A DNA stretch of 64,000 nucleotides, from assembly GCA_020975725.1 (NCBI GenBank), contig QXJR01000028.1:248001-312000 (forward strand), in the 5' to 3' direction. The position numbers and the translations under genes were made by a program. The notes beneath the pieces are model-generated. The model saw only the letters and a program-made list of their open reading frames with translations, was not told the DNA's origin and searched no databases. The DNA comes from Picocystis sp. L7. Taxonomy: Eukaryota; Chlorophyta; Picocystophyceae; Picocystales; Picocystaceae. Shown here one piece after another: positions 5,469-26,995 of the stretch (its first letter is position 1; each line of letters begins with the position of its first letter).

Positions 5469-6102
5469 CCCGTTGCGGCAGCACGTGCGCTCGGGTTTGC
5501 GACGTCGTTGTGTTGCCGGTTCCATGGAACACGAGATTCCTGCCTCGTCCCGAGGGATCCCCGATCAAAACGGCCGTTCTATCGGGAAAATGCCTCCAAT
5601 CAAAACGTGGGTTCGAACCCGGGTGGTCTTCCCATGGCCAACCGGATGCGATCGGGTGGATCCTGTCTCTCGGATCGACGAAGGGGCAACCCTGGTCCTC
5701 CTCGGCCTCCTTCCCACATTCCCCGTTCCGTCCGTCATCTCCCCGACATCCTCGTCCCCTGCCTCCGATGCACGCCGAGGATGCTTTCTCTCCCCTCTGA
5801 TTTCCTCCTCCCTTCCCTTTCATGACCGGACCCAAGGACCCCCCAAACGGTCGATTTTCAGACGCTTTCTTTCGTCCATGGCGCGAAACGAGGTCCCAAA
5901 CTGCGCCTTGATGGACATCATTTTCGCTTCGTGAGATTCGAGCAAGGAGGCGACGAAGAGGCGGCACAGGATCGATTCGTAGGCGATGCCTGCGACGAGA
6001 CGAAGTGCAAGGAACGTGGAACGGAAGGTGCTGGTGGACAAGCAGTGCGTGCTCGGAAGGAAGCGACGGACGGGATGGAAGAGGAAGACGAAAGACTGAC
6101 GC
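5469..6102. promoter_or_regulatory. shared divergent promoter of VPS36 and SCC3, plus unresolved SCC3 first exon
   Basis: About 630 bp between two divergently read genes. The SCC3 frame has no ATG near its 5' end, so its first exon must lie here. Candidate donors are the GTGAG at about 5932 and the GTGCTG at about 6027, but none can be chosen from sequence alone. Confidence 0.4.
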
Positions 6103-12687: not shown

Positions 12688-13498
12688 CGTTGCCTCGTCT
12701 TCTGTGGCCTTTCGAAGGCCTCCCGCAACACCTCTTCCCAAAACTCCTCGACGCTTTTCGTAGTCCTGTCGCCGCTTTGACAGTGTATTGTCCGATCTCC
12801 AGCGAGAGAGTCACCGGTTCCCGCAGAGGTCCACCTGGAGTCCCCACCACCGTTTTGCAGCGAGTAAGATCTGCCCTATATATAGTTTCCATGTCCCCGA
12901 TAGGGCACGACTGTGCTTGAACAGGATCAGTTCTGCAGTTCGTACACCCTTCTGTATTCTCCAAATACAGACGAGTTCCTCACCCCGGTTGACGAGAGGA
13001 AGCCTCCGGTCCAGAGCGCGAAGCCAGCCGACACGTGACGAGCTTCAAGCCACGCTTGAAAGGAGTCCGTGTGGGCATGATGACCGTCCCATCGCGCATC
13101 ATTCCGCCGATGGTGAAGGTCCGGTGGCAATCCGACGGGTGTGAATCAACCATCTCTAATCTTTTGGATTCGGAAGAAAGGTTGAGATGAACGGGAAAGA
13201 GAAGCATTATATGTCCAAAGAAATCTTCCGACGGGACAAAGGAGGCCACCTTTTGCCGTGTTGGGTGAATGTTGTCAATTGACTTGTACAATGCAAGATC
13301 ACCAAGTGCTCGATACGCAACACCCAGGATCCGCTTTCGATGCCTAAACACACATGCTTTCGCGCTAGGGTGCTTTACGTGCACATCCTTCCCCTTAGAA
13401 GACGCTTGACATCATGTTTGACCACTGGGAAAGAACGCTTTAAATGTTGTGACGGCCAAGGAGCCCTAGAACATCTTTACCTCTTGCAAGCCGGTTGG
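12688..13498. other. spacer, no gene seen
   Basis: Falling GC content and no recognisable coding sequence. It holds the uL30m promoter and runs into the gene-poor zone with the solo LTR. Confidence 0.4.
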
Positions 13499-22079: not shown

Positions 22080-24230
22080 ATGACCAACGAACTGCTGGTC
22101 CAGGTGAGCGGGAAAAAAAGGAGGAACGAAAGGCAAACGAGGTCGCGAAGACGGGTTGGAAGCTGACCTCGAAACCCAACGCCTACGTCGACGTTGCAGG
22201 TGGATGGATCCAAACCAGCCACCGCGGATGCACCCTCGCAAAGCGCGGCATACCGAGCCAAGTTCGCGGAAAAAGGATGGCCCTCCCTCGAGTTCAAAAC
22301 CTGCTACGAGATCTTCCACAAATCGGTCGAAAAGCACGCGGAGAAGCCCTGCCTGGGGAAAAGAAAAGGGGTGAGTGCATGGACCTGCATCGTCTTCCCT
22401 CGTGGAGACGAATCTGAAAGACCGAGAAAAATGCAAGCAGAGTACTGACCCGAACGCTGCGATCGAGGACAGGATGGACCCTTCGAGTTCATGACCTACA
22501 AAGAAGCAGGGGAGAAGGCTGGACATCTCTCCGCCGCACTTCGTAAGGAAGGGCTGTCACAAGGTGCCCGTGTCGGGTGTTTTGGACCCAACTCGCCAGA
22601 GTGGATGCTGGCAATGCAGGCATGTAACAATCAGTCCATGCAATGCATTCCCCTGTACGATACTCTGGGTGCAGAAGTGATCGAATACATTGTAAATCAT
22701 GCAGAAATCTCCATTGTCTTCTGCGAAGCAACCAAGATGGGACACTTGTTAGAAGCCCTGCCCAAATGCCCCACGCTCAAGGCTGTCGTCATGTGGGGAG
22801 AGATCAAGGAGGATTCCCTGGCCAGTGCCAAAGCATCCGGTGTGAAAACTTTCTCTTTTGACGAGTTTCTCGAGGCAGGCAAGGCGGATCCGGTGGAAGA
22901 TGTGCCGCCCTCGCCAGACTCGGTGTGTACCATCATGTACACAAGTGGTACAACAGGTGATCCAAAAGGGGTAGTGTTGAAGCACAGTGCAATCGTCTCC
23001 GCCGTGGTAGCATGCTACCTTGCATGTTGCAATTGGGACATTCAACTCACAAGCGACGATGTGTTCCTCTCCTTCCTACCTCTAGCTCATATCTTTGATA
23101 GAGTGACAGAAGAAATGTTCCTGTCATTTGGAGGGCAGATTGGATACTGGAGAGGGGATGTGAAAATGCTTGTGGATGACATCGGGGCTTTGCGTCCCAC
23201 CTTTTTCTGCGGAGTGCCCAGGATTTATGATCGAATCTTTGCAGGGGTGACCGATCAGGTCAACAAGGCTGGGGGCCTGAAGAAGTTCCTTTTCAACTTT
23301 GGTTTCTCACGGAAGATGCACCATCTTGAGGCTGGTGTGAAACAGTCAAAGGCGAGCCCATTGTTTGACAAGATTGTTTTTTCAAAGGTAAAGCAGAGGC
23401 TGGGAGGAAGGGTGAGGATCATCGTGTCAGGAGCTGCCCCTCTTGCTCGACACGTGGAGGACTTTCTGCGTGTCACGATGTGTTGCCCCGTCGTGCAGGG
23501 GTACGGGCTCACTGAGACATGTGCTTCAAGTTTCATTTGCGAGCCGGATAACATCAAGATGGCTGGTACAGTCGGTGCTCCTTTCCCCTGCATCGAGTTC
23601 ATGCTGGAATCGGTTCCAGAGATGGACTACGATGCACTTGGAGATACTCCGCGTGGAGAGATTTGCTTGCGCGGACCCGCCCTCTTCTCTGGTTATTACA
23701 AGCAGGAGAAAGCCACCAGCGAGGTCATGGACAGCAATGGTTGGTTCCACACAGGCGACGTTGGTGAGCTTGCCGATGGTTGCTTACGAGTCATCGATCG
23801 CAAGAAGAACATCTTCAAGCTCTCGCAAGGCGAATATGTGGCAGCAGAAAAGCTGGAGAATGTCTACGGCCAGTGCGGTATGCTGGACATGATCTGGGTA
23901 TACGGCGACAGTTACAAGAGCATGCTGGTGGCAGTCGCCGTGCCTAACGAAGCAAAGCTCGTGTCCTGGGCTTCAGAGAAGGGCATCAAGGGTAGCTTTT
24001 CTGAGCTTTGTACTTCAGAGGAGGCCAAGGCGCACATTCTCTCGAAGCTCAGCAGCATCGGGAAGGAGAACAAGCTGAAAGGTTTCGAGATGGTTAAGGC
24101 CATTCACTTAGCCCCGGAGCCTTTTTCGGTGGAGAACGACCTTCTCACGCCCACGTTCAAGAAGCGTCGCCCACAGCTGAAAAAAGCATTCCAGAAGGAG
24201 CTCGATGCACTGTATGCATCCTTAGGGTAG
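22080..24230 (+). CDS. long-chain acyl-CoA synthetase (three exons)
   Basis: Exons 22080-22103 (8 codons), 22200-22370 and 22473-24230 join in phase 0; introns are 96 nt (donor GTGAGC) and 102 nt (donor GTGAGT). The protein has 650 residues. The joined N-terminus reads through LEFKTCYEIFHKSVEKHAEKPCLGKRKG into DGPFEFMTYKEAG as in plant and animal LACS/ACSL. AMP-binding motifs: YTSGTTGDPKGVVLKH (P-loop), YGLTETCA, GWFHTGDVGEL and DRKKNIFKLSQGEYVAAEKLE, the last being the fatty-acyl-CoA-synthetase signature. It activates fatty acids to acyl-CoA for lipid synthesis or beta-oxidation. No clear peroxisomal or plastid signal is visible, so an ER or outer-membrane site is likely. Confidence 0.95.
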
Positions 24231-24496: not shown

Positions 24497-24501
24497 AAAA
24501 A
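24497..24501 (-). terminator. Pol III T-run terminator of the permuted tRNA
   Basis: TTTTT on the minus strand, 39 nt past the end of the tRNA 5' half. Confidence 0.5.
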
Positions 24502-24539
24502 GTGAATCGTCAAGTCCCTGCTCCTATGGAAGGGGGCTC

Positions 24540-24709
24540 CCGAAGCGAGAATCATACCACTAGACCAAGTACCCAAGGAAGGGTTCAACCCCCGGGTTAC
24601 CCATCCCTTTGCATCGAAGACCGTGTCCGATACAGAAGGGACGGGATCGGGTTCGAATGGATCCCTTCGATGGGGGTACTGCGAGAATCGAACTCGCGAC
24701 CTCTCGCAC
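24540..24709 (-). tRNA. permuted tRNA-Pro(CGG): 3' half encoded before 5' half
   Basis: Read on the minus strand, the 3' half comes first (24709-24673) and the 5' half second (24574-24540), separated by about 98 nt. Joined end to start they give a 72-nt cloverleaf. The acceptor stem GGGTACT/AGTACCC pairs 7 of 7. The anticodon stem is CTCGC/GCGAG with loop TTCGGGT, so the anticodon is CGG (Pro). The variable loop has 5 nt and the T stem is GCGAG/CTCGC around TTCGATT. The D arm TTGGTCTAGTGGTATGA is the standard eukaryotic tRNA-Pro one. At the junction a 4-bp TTCG/CGAA helix and a CGT bulge can form, as expected for the bulge-helix-bulge cut by tRNA endonuclease. B box therefore precedes A box. 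Permuted tRNAs are known from Cyanidioschyzon, Ostreococcus, Micromonas and nucleomorphs. Confidence 0.88.
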
Positions 24710-25015
24710 GTTCGCTGAGGGGCGATACGGTGTGTCGTGCTGCTTCGCACGGGGAGGTACAAGCACCGAAATGTGCCTCACGAGGGTATTGATACCGCAA
24801 CTCCTCCACGACCATTCGCAGAAATTCGAGGTCCTCCCCCCACAACCGTCCTCGTTCGAGTCCCTCCCACGACCGGTCGCCGTCGAGGAGCTCTTTCCTG
24901 CGCCCGCAGAGGAAGCTTCTCTCCCTTCCCCCTCCTTCCTCGAAGTGCATGGGTCCGTTTCGAGGGTTTTGTCGAGGGGTCGGCGCACGAGTCCATCTCC
25001 ATTTCCATCGTCGCG

Positions 25016-26995
25016 ATGAGTCGCGCACCAGAGAACAGCGGCACGCAGAAGACCACCGTGCCACTCGTGCGCACGGTGGGATTCGATCTGGAAGCCGAAC
25101 GACTCGCAGCTGCCAATTTGTCGGCCGAAGATTCGCCCGCGACGCTGCAAACCGCCGCCAGCCTCTCTCCGGTGCGCATCCCTCCTGCGATCTTCAAGAA
25201 ACAGCAGCATCACGACGAAACGGAACGCCATCACGCGGAAGCGGAAGGCGTCGTGGACGACGAGGACCTTTCAGAAGCACCCGAAAGTCCAGATCTTGCG
25301 TCGGAAGGGACGCATTCGGACGGACCGGATCCGACTGCGGCGACCTTGGCCACCAGCGTCGACAAAACCGTCGTGTACGTGCGCAAAGACAGGATGCATC
25401 CTTCCGGATCTGTGATCGCCAACGCCATCTCAGGGAGGAGAGATTCTCCAGATCTTCCGGAGACGCAAGACGCGGAGACGAAAAGCGAGGAACCTCAGGA
25501 AGAGTCCATCCCAGCTGAACAGGCCACGGTGGACACAACCCATCCAGAACAAACAGAGACGAAATCCAGGACCAAAGAAGTAGCGAAAGAACAGAAAGAG
25601 ATCCTTGGTGATCACCCGAATCAAGAGAAAGCAGAAGAAGCCGAAACATCCAAGAAAGAAACGAAGAAGAAACTGACGCGAGCAGAACGCAGAGAAATAC
25701 AAGAGAAACAAAGGGCCGCCAAGGCGGAGGCCAAAGCAGCAGCAGCAGCACCTGGTGGTCCTGGGAAACCAGCTGCAAAGAGAACGAGCGAGCAGCCAGC
25801 CTCTGATTCTTCTCGCATGCCTGTCTCAGCAAGTAAAGGGACGGATGTGGAAAGACCACAGGATGGGAAAGACGACAAAAAAAAAGTGGAGAAGATCCTC
25901 AAGAAAGGTCTGGTCCCACAGAACAAAGCAGTCAAAGTGGTAGAGCTGTTCTCCCACATTCGGCAAGTAGACGAGGAGGCTCTATTGTCGAGTCTGATGG
26001 AGGTGGGATTGGGAAGCTCGGTGCTTCACCCAGACGTAGTGGAGATTGGGCTTCAATACGCAGATGGAACCATTGTAGGGGGGACTGCGCGATGTTTTAC
26101 TATGCTCGTAGCATTTAGGAAGATGATATTGTCGTATGCGACACCATCAGGGAAGCAGTTTTCTAGGGACCTCACCGCAAAATTAAACACAAACATTCAA
26201 TTCCTGACACAGTGCAGACCGCTATCGGCAAACATGGGCAATGCAATCCGCTGGCTCAAAATGCAGGTTGCAAACGTAGATCCCTCACTGTCAGATGAGA
26301 CTGCACGGAACATGTTGGTAGGTAGTATTAATCAGTACATTCAAGAGAAGATCATTTTCGCGGAGAAAAGGATTGTGGAACTAGGATTGAGCAAGATCGA
26401 CGATGGGGATGTCATACTCACCTATGCATTCTCGTACATCGTACTGCAGTTGCTGTTAGCAGCACAAGCGGCCGGCAAACAGTTCAGTGTCATCATCGTT
26501 GATTCGCGTCCGCACAACGAAGGACAGGAACTTCTTAGCCGCCTCCTGCAGGAAGGAGTCACATGTGTTTACACTCACATCAATGCAGCACCGTATGTGA
26601 TGAAAGATGCCACCAAAGTATTCGTTGGAGCATCGGCTGTACTTGCAAACGGTGCGGTCATCTCCAGGGCAGGCACTGCGGCGATAGCATGTGCTGCGGA
26701 GGTCTTTGGTTTGCCTGTGATGGTTTGTTGCGAGTCAAACAAGTTCCATGAACGAGTGCAGTTGGATAGCATCACATCCAACGAGTTGGGCGATCCAGGA
26801 GCTCTTGTGCAAACCAAGGGTCGTCCGGACCCCAACCTGCATGGCTGGGAAGATGTGGACAACCTCTACCTGCTGAATCTGAAGTATGATGCCATGCAAG
26901 CCGAGTTTGTTACCATGATCATAACCGAATTTGGACTCGTGCCGCCGACAAGCGTTCCTGTGATCCTGCGTGAGTACCGAACGGATCCTTTCTGA
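25016..26995 (+). CDS. EIF2B4: translation initiation factor eIF2B subunit delta
   Basis: 659 residues from the ATG at 25016. Residues 1-280 are a disordered, charged N-tail with a Lys/Ala-rich helix (KKLTRAERREIQEKQRAAKAEAKAAAAAPGG), as in animal and plant delta subunits. From about 290 the IF-2B fold begins: NKAVKVVELFSHIRQVDEEALLSSL, HPDVVEIGLQYADGTIVGGTARC, VDSRPHNEGQELLSRLLQEGVTCVYTHINAAPYVM, FVGASAVLANGAVISRAGTAAIACAAEVFGLPVMVCCESNKFHERVQLDSIT and SVPVILREY at the end. Delta belongs to the regulatory core of eIF2B, the GDP-GTP exchange factor for eIF2, and senses eIF2 phosphorylation. Convergent with the Mpv17-like gene 150 bp away. Confidence 0.96.
   Translation: MSRAPENSGTQKTTVPLVRTVGFDLEAERLAAANLSAEDSPATLQTAASLSPVRIPPAIFKKQQHHDETERHHAEAEGVVDDEDLSEAPESPDLASEGTHSDGPDPTAATLATSVDKTVVYVRKDRMHPSGSVIANAISGRRDSPDLPETQDAETKSEEPQEESIPAEQATVDTTHPEQTETKSRTKEVAKEQKEILGDHPNQEKAEEAETSKKETKKKLTRAERREIQEKQRAAKAEAKAAAAAPGGPGKPAAKRTSEQPASDSSRMPVSASKGTDVERPQDGKDDKKKVEKILKKGLVPQNKAVKVVELFSHIRQVDEEALLSSLMEVGLGSSVLHPDVVEIGLQYADGTIVGGTARCFTMLVAFRKMILSYATPSGKQFSRDLTAKLNTNIQFLTQCRPLSANMGNAIRWLKMQVANVDPSLSDETARNMLVGSINQYIQEKIIFAEKRIVELGLSKIDDGDVILTYAFSYIVLQLLLAAQAAGKQFSVIIVDSRPHNEGQELLSRLLQEGVTCVYTHINAAPYVMKDATKVFVGASAVLANGAVISRAGTAAIACAAEVFGLPVMVCCESNKFHERVQLDSITSNELGDPGALVQTKGRPDPNLHGWEDVDNLYLLNLKYDAMQAEFVTMIITEFGLVPPTSVPVILREYRTDPF

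Follow-up and report, generated by a model that had tools for sequence, protein, structure and literature searches.

The 64-kb window examined here, meaning the whole stretch of 64,000 nucleotides, very probably contains a functional nuclear type II circularly permuted gene for tRNA-Pro(CGG), judging from the order and pairing of its two halves. Both halves are on the minus strand, with the 3′ half upstream of the 5′ half, and the gene is placed between an ORF for an AMP-binding enzyme and an ORF for an eIF2B-like protein, both on the plus strand of an 807-kb contig (C26). The original prediction of a permuted nuclear tRNA-Pro(CGG) is thereby supported, and the strand, which it had not named, can be added. 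Type II circularly permuted tRNA genes are an already known kind. The case exceeds the first reading in that the permuted tRNAs of this genome include all three proline isoacceptors as well as four others. The features of the locus are as follows, with the parts of the permuted gene given in transcript order and the neighbouring ORFs last.

24709..24714, minus strand: end of the leader, CGAA-CG; the CGAA pairs with TTCG (bases 32-35) in 4/4 positions, and the CG together with T38 makes a 3-nt bulge.
24673..24708, minus strand: 3′ half of tRNA-Pro(CGG), bases 38-73 (C73), first in the transcript; read from the sequence and found by the structural scan.
24575..24672, minus strand: intervening sequence of 98 nt, running from the 3′ end to the 5′ end, with no T4 run and no CCA after base 73.
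24539..24574, minus strand: 5′ half of tRNA-Pro(CGG), bases 1-37; found by the 5′-half pattern and the structural scan.
24497..24501, minus strand: T5 run, candidate RNA polymerase III terminator, beginning 38 nt beyond the 5′ half.
22491..24230, plus strand: neighbouring ORF, AMP-binding enzyme (PF00501).
25016..26995, plus strand: neighbouring ORF, IF-2B family, eIF2B delta-like (PF01008).

Joining the halves at 37/38 yields a 72-nt product in which the acceptor stem (7/7), the anticodon stem (5/5) and the T arm (5/5) are paired entirely by Watson-Crick pairs, reproducing the predicted pairing as well as the predicted anticodon loop, TTCGGGT. The product has U8, G18G19, U33 and C73, and its acceptor halves, GGGTACT and AGTACCC, match in cis. 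In the D arm, 3 of 4 positions pair (two Watson-Crick and one G-U), a count identical to that in the other two tRNA-Pro genes. G37 can be assigned to either half, and exon bounds of 24709/24540 are just as possible as 24708/24539. When the joined halves were given to ARAGORN, they were called as tRNA-Pro(cgg). The same program reported 0 tRNAs in the 64-kb window, and Rfam at the gathering threshold reported U3 only and no tRNA, which bears out the expectation that ordinary finders miss the gene. The U3 snoRNA gene is at 12907-13141 on the plus strand and scores 102 bits against the plant U3 family. Elsewhere in the window, the palindrome GGTTCGAACC is present in two copies, at 5610 and 59059. 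The closest named match of the eIF2B-like protein is from Trebouxia (45% over 67% of the length). Proline accounts for 98 of 1735 codons (5.6%) in the three window ORFs with Pfam matches, and all four proline codons are in use.

The uniqueness of the locus within the window was assessed with an untrained scan for a TTCRA T-loop, complete pairing of three stems with G-U permitted, U8, U33 and a D-loop GG in permuted order with a gap of 0-150. Under these rules, which were drawn up with the target already known, exactly one match was obtained over the two strands of the window together, the tRNA-Pro(CGG) locus, and 30 random 64-kb windows of equal dinucleotide frequencies gave no match. Two covariance models of tRNA rotated at 37/38 were also used. 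The first, R1, was trained on 14 ordinary tRNAs of the same genome, including a rotated ordinary Ala(TGC), and on the three tRNA-Pro; its scores for Pro and Ala are thus not independent tests. The window gene, itself part of the training set, scores 61.6 bits with R1, which across 82 sources gives the five Pro and Ala genes 61.6-67.5 bits, the best other match being 43.7, from neighbouring plastid tRNAs. The second model, R2, was trained on 13 ordinary tRNAs with Pro and Ala left out. It recovers both permuted tRNA-Ala at 62.3 and 58.4 bits (in 52 sources, the highest score outside the permuted genes is 44.6), and none of the three Pro genes is listed at E 0.001 over the same number of sources. 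With filters off, R2 gives the window gene 15 bits on the 3′ half only; this is still the top match in the window, and the gene is not recovered as a permuted tRNA. The unusual tRNA-Pro D arm and the long intervening sequences may be the cause of this failure. The class II Leu gene is weak in both models (27.8 and 26.2 bits) and the Ser gene is listed by neither. Because ordinary tRNAs also match R1 and R2 partially, with E down to about 1e-10, E-values alone are no proof of permutation.

The proline set was then considered across the genome, a 20.5-Mb assembly in 30 contigs. A 27-nt pattern for the tRNA-Pro 5′ half, allowing up to 3 mismatches, has exactly three matches genome-wide and 0 in the reversed control:

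Contig C24: permuted Pro(AGG), found with the 5′-half pattern.
Contig C26, in the window: permuted Pro(CGG), found with the 5′-half pattern.
Contig C28: permuted Pro(TGG), found with the 5′-half pattern.

Each of the three 5′ halves is downstream of its own 3′ half. Pro(CGG) and Pro(TGG) have one common 3′ half sequence, which at up to 3 mismatches is found solely at those two permuted sites, and the acceptor halves of Pro(AGG), GGGTGAT and ATCACCC, match each other and differ from those of the CGG and TGG genes. A fourth match of an earlier 5′-half pattern, on contig C7, was dropped, as the adjoining sequence has no tRNA half by eye and the match is absent with the 3-mismatch pattern. An intact tRNA-Pro(CGG) elsewhere in the genome had been named as the finding that would point to a pseudogene. 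No such gene, and no intact nuclear tRNA-Pro of any kind, was found with the half patterns, on which this statement rests; a copy more than 3 mismatches off in the pattern would escape. Misses of the DNA search carry no weight, as a DNA query missed Pro(AGG) despite more than 20 exact shared bases. Since loss of cytosolic proline tRNA would presumably be lethal, all three tRNA-Pro genes must be functional, provided that no divergent copy escaped the search.

Apart from these three, the tRNA-Pro genes seen were two ordinary tRNA-Pro(TGG), one on the mitochondrial contig C29 (80 of 97 kb scanned) and one on the plastid contig C30 (40 of 62 kb scanned). The mitochondrial-looking contig is 66% GC in its first 80 kb and has tRNA blocks in large repeats, both direct and inverted, with a repeat unit of apparently 80.9 kb, judged by tRNA positions. 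The plastid contig is small (61.6 kb), is 36% GC in its first 40 kb and keeps chlL and chlN. Its ChlN is 84% identical to that of Auxenochlorella, 79% to that of Streptosarcina, which is a streptophyte, and 100% to two unnamed proteins. The ChlN and eIF2B-like matches hint, tentatively, at a trebouxiophyte-like alga.

Four further permuted tRNA genes were located outside the proline set:

C26:393891-393991, minus strand: permuted Ala(AGC), found via a DNA query.
C6:529174-529288, plus strand: permuted Ala(CGC), found with the tRNA-Ala 5′-half pattern.
C5:565704-565830, minus strand: permuted Leu(TAA), found with the Ser 5′-half pattern.
C1:1333142-1333306, minus strand: permuted Ser(AGA), found with the Ser 5′-half pattern.

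The tRNA-Ala 5′-half pattern has three matches, an ordinary Ala(TGC) and the two permuted genes. The Ser 5′-half pattern likewise has three, an ordinary Ser(TGA) and the permuted Leu(TAA) and Ser(AGA), and a Leu pattern returned three Leu genes, all in ordinary order. For all seven permuted genes, ARAGORN calls the expected tRNA from the joined halves, and the junction is at 37/38. The cognate halves are in cis, within 101-170 nt, and are separated by intervening sequences of 28-98 nt, those of Pro(CGG) and Ser(AGA) being 98 and 83 nt. Both permuted Ala genes have A73 and G3-U70, the latter being the mark of tRNA-Ala. Pro(AGG) and Pro(TGG) resemble each other over one stretch of their intervening sequences (0/200 shuffles as good), and a pairing of Pro(AGG) with Ala(AGC) is matched by 3/200 shuffles, in a set of 63 comparisons; the former similarity is a weak hint of common descent. 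Words like GGTTCGA also occur inside the Pro(TGG) intervening sequence.

In total, 40 nuclear tRNA genes were located, 33 in ordinary order and 7 permuted. This census is incomplete and the count is a lower bound, because the sequence words proved unusable and, of 710 candidates, no more than 63 were scored in the Rfam tRNA search. As a census word, GGTTCRANYCC is too common (787 places against 142 in the reversed control), and most AGTTCRANYCT matches are due to chance (115 places, with 162 in the control). Among the 100 of the 787 GGTTCRANYCC matches that were listed, GGTTCGAACCC and GGTTCGATCCC are frequent. No Arg(TCT), Arg(CCG), Gln(TTG), Leu(CAA), elongator Met, Ser(CGA), Ser(GCT) or Val(AAC) is among the 40 located genes, which says little in an incomplete census. 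The ordinary genes include an initiator-like tRNA-Met whose anticodon loop is interrupted by an 18-nt intron and a tRNA-Tyr(GTA), read from the sequence, with an intron of about 200 nt, which is long for a nuclear tRNA; ARAGORN calls the latter as Arg(gcg) with a 201-nt intron. Because the initiator Met and Tyr genes carry introns, the cell must splice tRNAs.

A helix at the junction links the seven permuted genes. In each of them, leader bases -6 to -3 before base 38 stand opposite loop bases 32-35, and at this one fixed offset 27 of 28 positions are paired. In all seven, the two remaining leader bases and base 38 are left as a 3-nt bulge next to the anticodon stem. The partners are as follows.

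Pro(CGG) and Ala(CGC): leader CGAA, loop TTCG.
Pro(AGG) and Ala(AGC): leader CTAA, loop TTAG.
Pro(TGG): leader CGAA, loop TTTG, with one G-U.
Ser(AGA): leader CTAG, loop CTAG.
Leu(TAA): 3/4 leader-loop pairs.

The TTCG/CGAA helix predicted for the window gene is therefore present, with a bulge made up of CG and T38. Base 34 and its partner covary across the set, being A34 with T in Pro(AGG), Ala(AGC) and Ser(AGA), C34 with G in Pro(CGG) and Ala(CGC), and a T34-G wobble in Pro(TGG) and Leu(TAA). With the leader shifted by up to 8 nt, no more than 19/28 pairs form, and when the placement within the leaders is random, 0 of 300,000 trials reach 27 (mean 12.4, maximum 24). The helix rule was first noticed in the Pro genes, and the Ala, Leu and Ser genes served as tests, in which 15 of 16 pairs were found; common ancestry among the Pro genes, and between the two Ala genes, is possible, so that the seven are not fully independent. 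When leaders and loops were swapped among six genes, 4 of 720 pairings equalled the true one (mean 17.8/24 pairs against 23), because several genes have loop sequences in common. The bulge-helix-bulge that had been predicted stands in part: the anticodon stem, the bulge and the central helix are present, whereas no outer helix beyond the bulges was seen by eye. The motif is a relaxed hBH, which is the green-algal form according to the review of permuted tRNA genes (PMC3978253).

The ends of the genes follow the same plan. A run of T4 or longer is present within 70 nt of trailer in 7/7 permuted genes and within the intervening sequence in 0/7; for the window gene, this is the T5 run at 24501-24497, in keeping with the T-run that had been noted after the gene. 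CCA is not encoded, the three bases after position 73 being CAT, CCT, GGT, CAT, ACC, TAT and TGT in the seven permuted genes. Upstream, TGTGA or GTGTCA is present at 7 of 32 ordinary genes (68 nt) and at 4 of the 6 permuted ones examined (95 nt; Ala(CGC) left out), with Pro(AGG), Pro(TGG), Ala(AGC) and Ser(AGA) as examples, over a background of 5.3% per 68 nt, an enrichment that was found post hoc and counted after removal of one duplicate flank, that of the second tRNA-Asp. It is possible that these words are a promoter element shared by ordinary and permuted tRNA genes. The sequence upstream of Pro(CGG) is without the motif, and no constant position was found for a TATA-like element upstream of the tRNA genes.

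Folding of the presumed circles gave a mixed picture. The acceptor stem is part of the lowest-energy fold in 3 of 7 cases (Pro(AGG), Pro(TGG) and Ala(CGC)) and is missing in Pro(CGG), Ala(AGC), Leu and Ser. The mean acceptor probabilities are 0.35 for Pro(CGG), 0.86 for Pro(AGG), 0.43 for Pro(TGG), 0.05 for Ala(AGC), 0.98 for Ala(CGC) and 0.00 for Leu and Ser, and the anticodon-stem probability is low in Ala(CGC) (0.16) and Ser (0.00). These predicted folds may mean that the cloverleaf depends on proteins, modification or prior pairing at the junction, or else that the fold parameters are inadequate.

The RNA elements needed by the published pathway are present at the window gene. In red and green algae, a linear transcript is cut and ligated at the junction to give a circle, which is processed by RNase P and tRNase Z before CCA addition (PMC3978253). 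By analogy with that pathway, from which we take transcription, circle formation, the order of cleavage and charging, RNA polymerase III would produce one linear transcript consisting of the leader, the 3′ half, the 98-nt intervening sequence, the 5′ half and the trailer, ending at the T run. The anticodon stem would close the molecule, with the leader CGAA pairing with bases 32-35, and the tRNA-splicing endonuclease would cut at 37/38, next to the leader helix. A tRNA ligase would then join the ends into an RNA circle, from which RNase P and tRNase Z would cut the intervening sequence off the acceptor stem, followed by CCA addition. That mature tRNA-Pro(CGG) is made and aminoacylated we infer from the absence of an intact tRNA-Pro.

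It is quite unlikely that the locus is instead a rearranged pseudogene, a silent relic left after a tandem tRNA-Pro duplication had shed its outer halves, with proline tRNA supplied from elsewhere. Duplication with loss of the outer halves is one proposed origin of permuted genes (PMC3978253), expression of the locus is a prediction, and a tRNA-Pro beyond the 3-mismatch reach of the 27-nt pattern would have escaped. Against a silent remnant, there is no intact nuclear tRNA-Pro among the matches to supply the cell, the acceptor, anticodon and T stems are free of mismatches, all three isoacceptors are permuted, and the junction helix has been kept at its fixed offset with matching base changes. 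An assembly error that swapped the halves is barely conceivable; although the order comes from a single assembly, the error would need to have struck seven loci, spread over six contigs (C1, C5, C6, C24, C26 twice and C28), each time at 37/38 and with a matching leader.

Two other readings accept a working tRNA and differ in how its halves would meet. If the halves were transcribed separately and spliced in trans, their neighbouring order would be incidental; maturation would still take identical cuts at leader and trailer, and the identical 3′ halves of the CGG and TGG genes would in principle be exchangeable. Such a split tRNA is nevertheless very improbable, since in 7/7 genes the cognate halves are in cis at close range, no T4 run lies between the halves while one follows the 5′ half, and the Pro(AGG) acceptor halves fit each other and not those of CGG/TGG. 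Split archaeal tRNA genes are likewise joined at bulge-helix-bulge sites, whereas the Picocystis halves are adjacent, on one strand and in reversed order. One might also entertain a gene in ordinary order whose partner half lies further out, across a very long intron, in a genome whose tRNA-Tyr has an intron of about 200 nt. The chance of this is minimal, because, with up to 3 mismatches allowed, the tRNA-Pro 5′ half exists in just three copies genome-wide, and every copy follows its own 3′ half.

The permuted gene in Picocystis can be placed beside those already described. A tally from 2014 comprises 34 permuted tRNA genes from six algae and one archaeon, with a patchy and unexplained distribution (PMC3978253). 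Its table of 34 contains no tRNA-Pro and no green-algal tRNA-Ala, and its longest intervening sequence is 74 nt; it does contain a permuted Cys(GCA), cysteine having a single usual anticodon, as well as three Ser genes permuted in M. pusilla, Ser(TGA) not among them (PMC3978253). The green-algal genes of that review resemble the Picocystis genes in having the 3′ half first, a junction at 37/38 and the relaxed hBH, and in the permutation of Leu(TAA) and Ser(AGA). They differ in that no permuted tRNA-Pro or tRNA-Ala is among those it covers and in their intervening sequences of 11-64 nt, compared with 28-98 nt in Picocystis. The permuted genes described in 2007, as given in the same source, share the gene order, the T stretch after the 5′ half and the lack of an encoded CCA. 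They differ in having four junction positions, where the seven Picocystis genes have 37/38 only; their longest intervening sequence is 74 nt, and no tRNA-Pro is among them. For those genes, the circular intermediate and aminoacylation have been demonstrated experimentally. In the trebouxiophyte Auxenochlorella, the tRNA set is described as complete only once permuted genes were found (PMC12636532, preprint PMC12633428), and a permuted tRNA-Pro may already be among the permuted genes of that alga (PMC12636532).

In the titles and abstract openings listed for papers on permuted tRNAs, we found no report of a permuted tRNA-Pro. Relative to that literature and to the genes covered in PMC3978253, what is new is apparently the permuted tRNA-Pro, the seemingly wholly permuted set of three isoacceptors and the 98-nt intervening sequence. 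It is likely that all cytosolic proline decoding, together with alanine decoding by the AGC and CGC anticodons, proceeds via circular RNA precursors in Picocystis, with no conventional nuclear tRNA-Pro and with intervening sequences of up to 98 nt. Standard tools miss essential tRNA genes of this kind in small green-algal genomes. The permuted proline set also makes it possible to examine whether duplication spread the permuted order or whether that order originated several times. With three tRNA-Pro genes all permuted and none ordinary, the circle pathway would be essential for one amino acid and therefore testable; if this is true, a whole four-codon amino acid would depend on back-to-front splicing.
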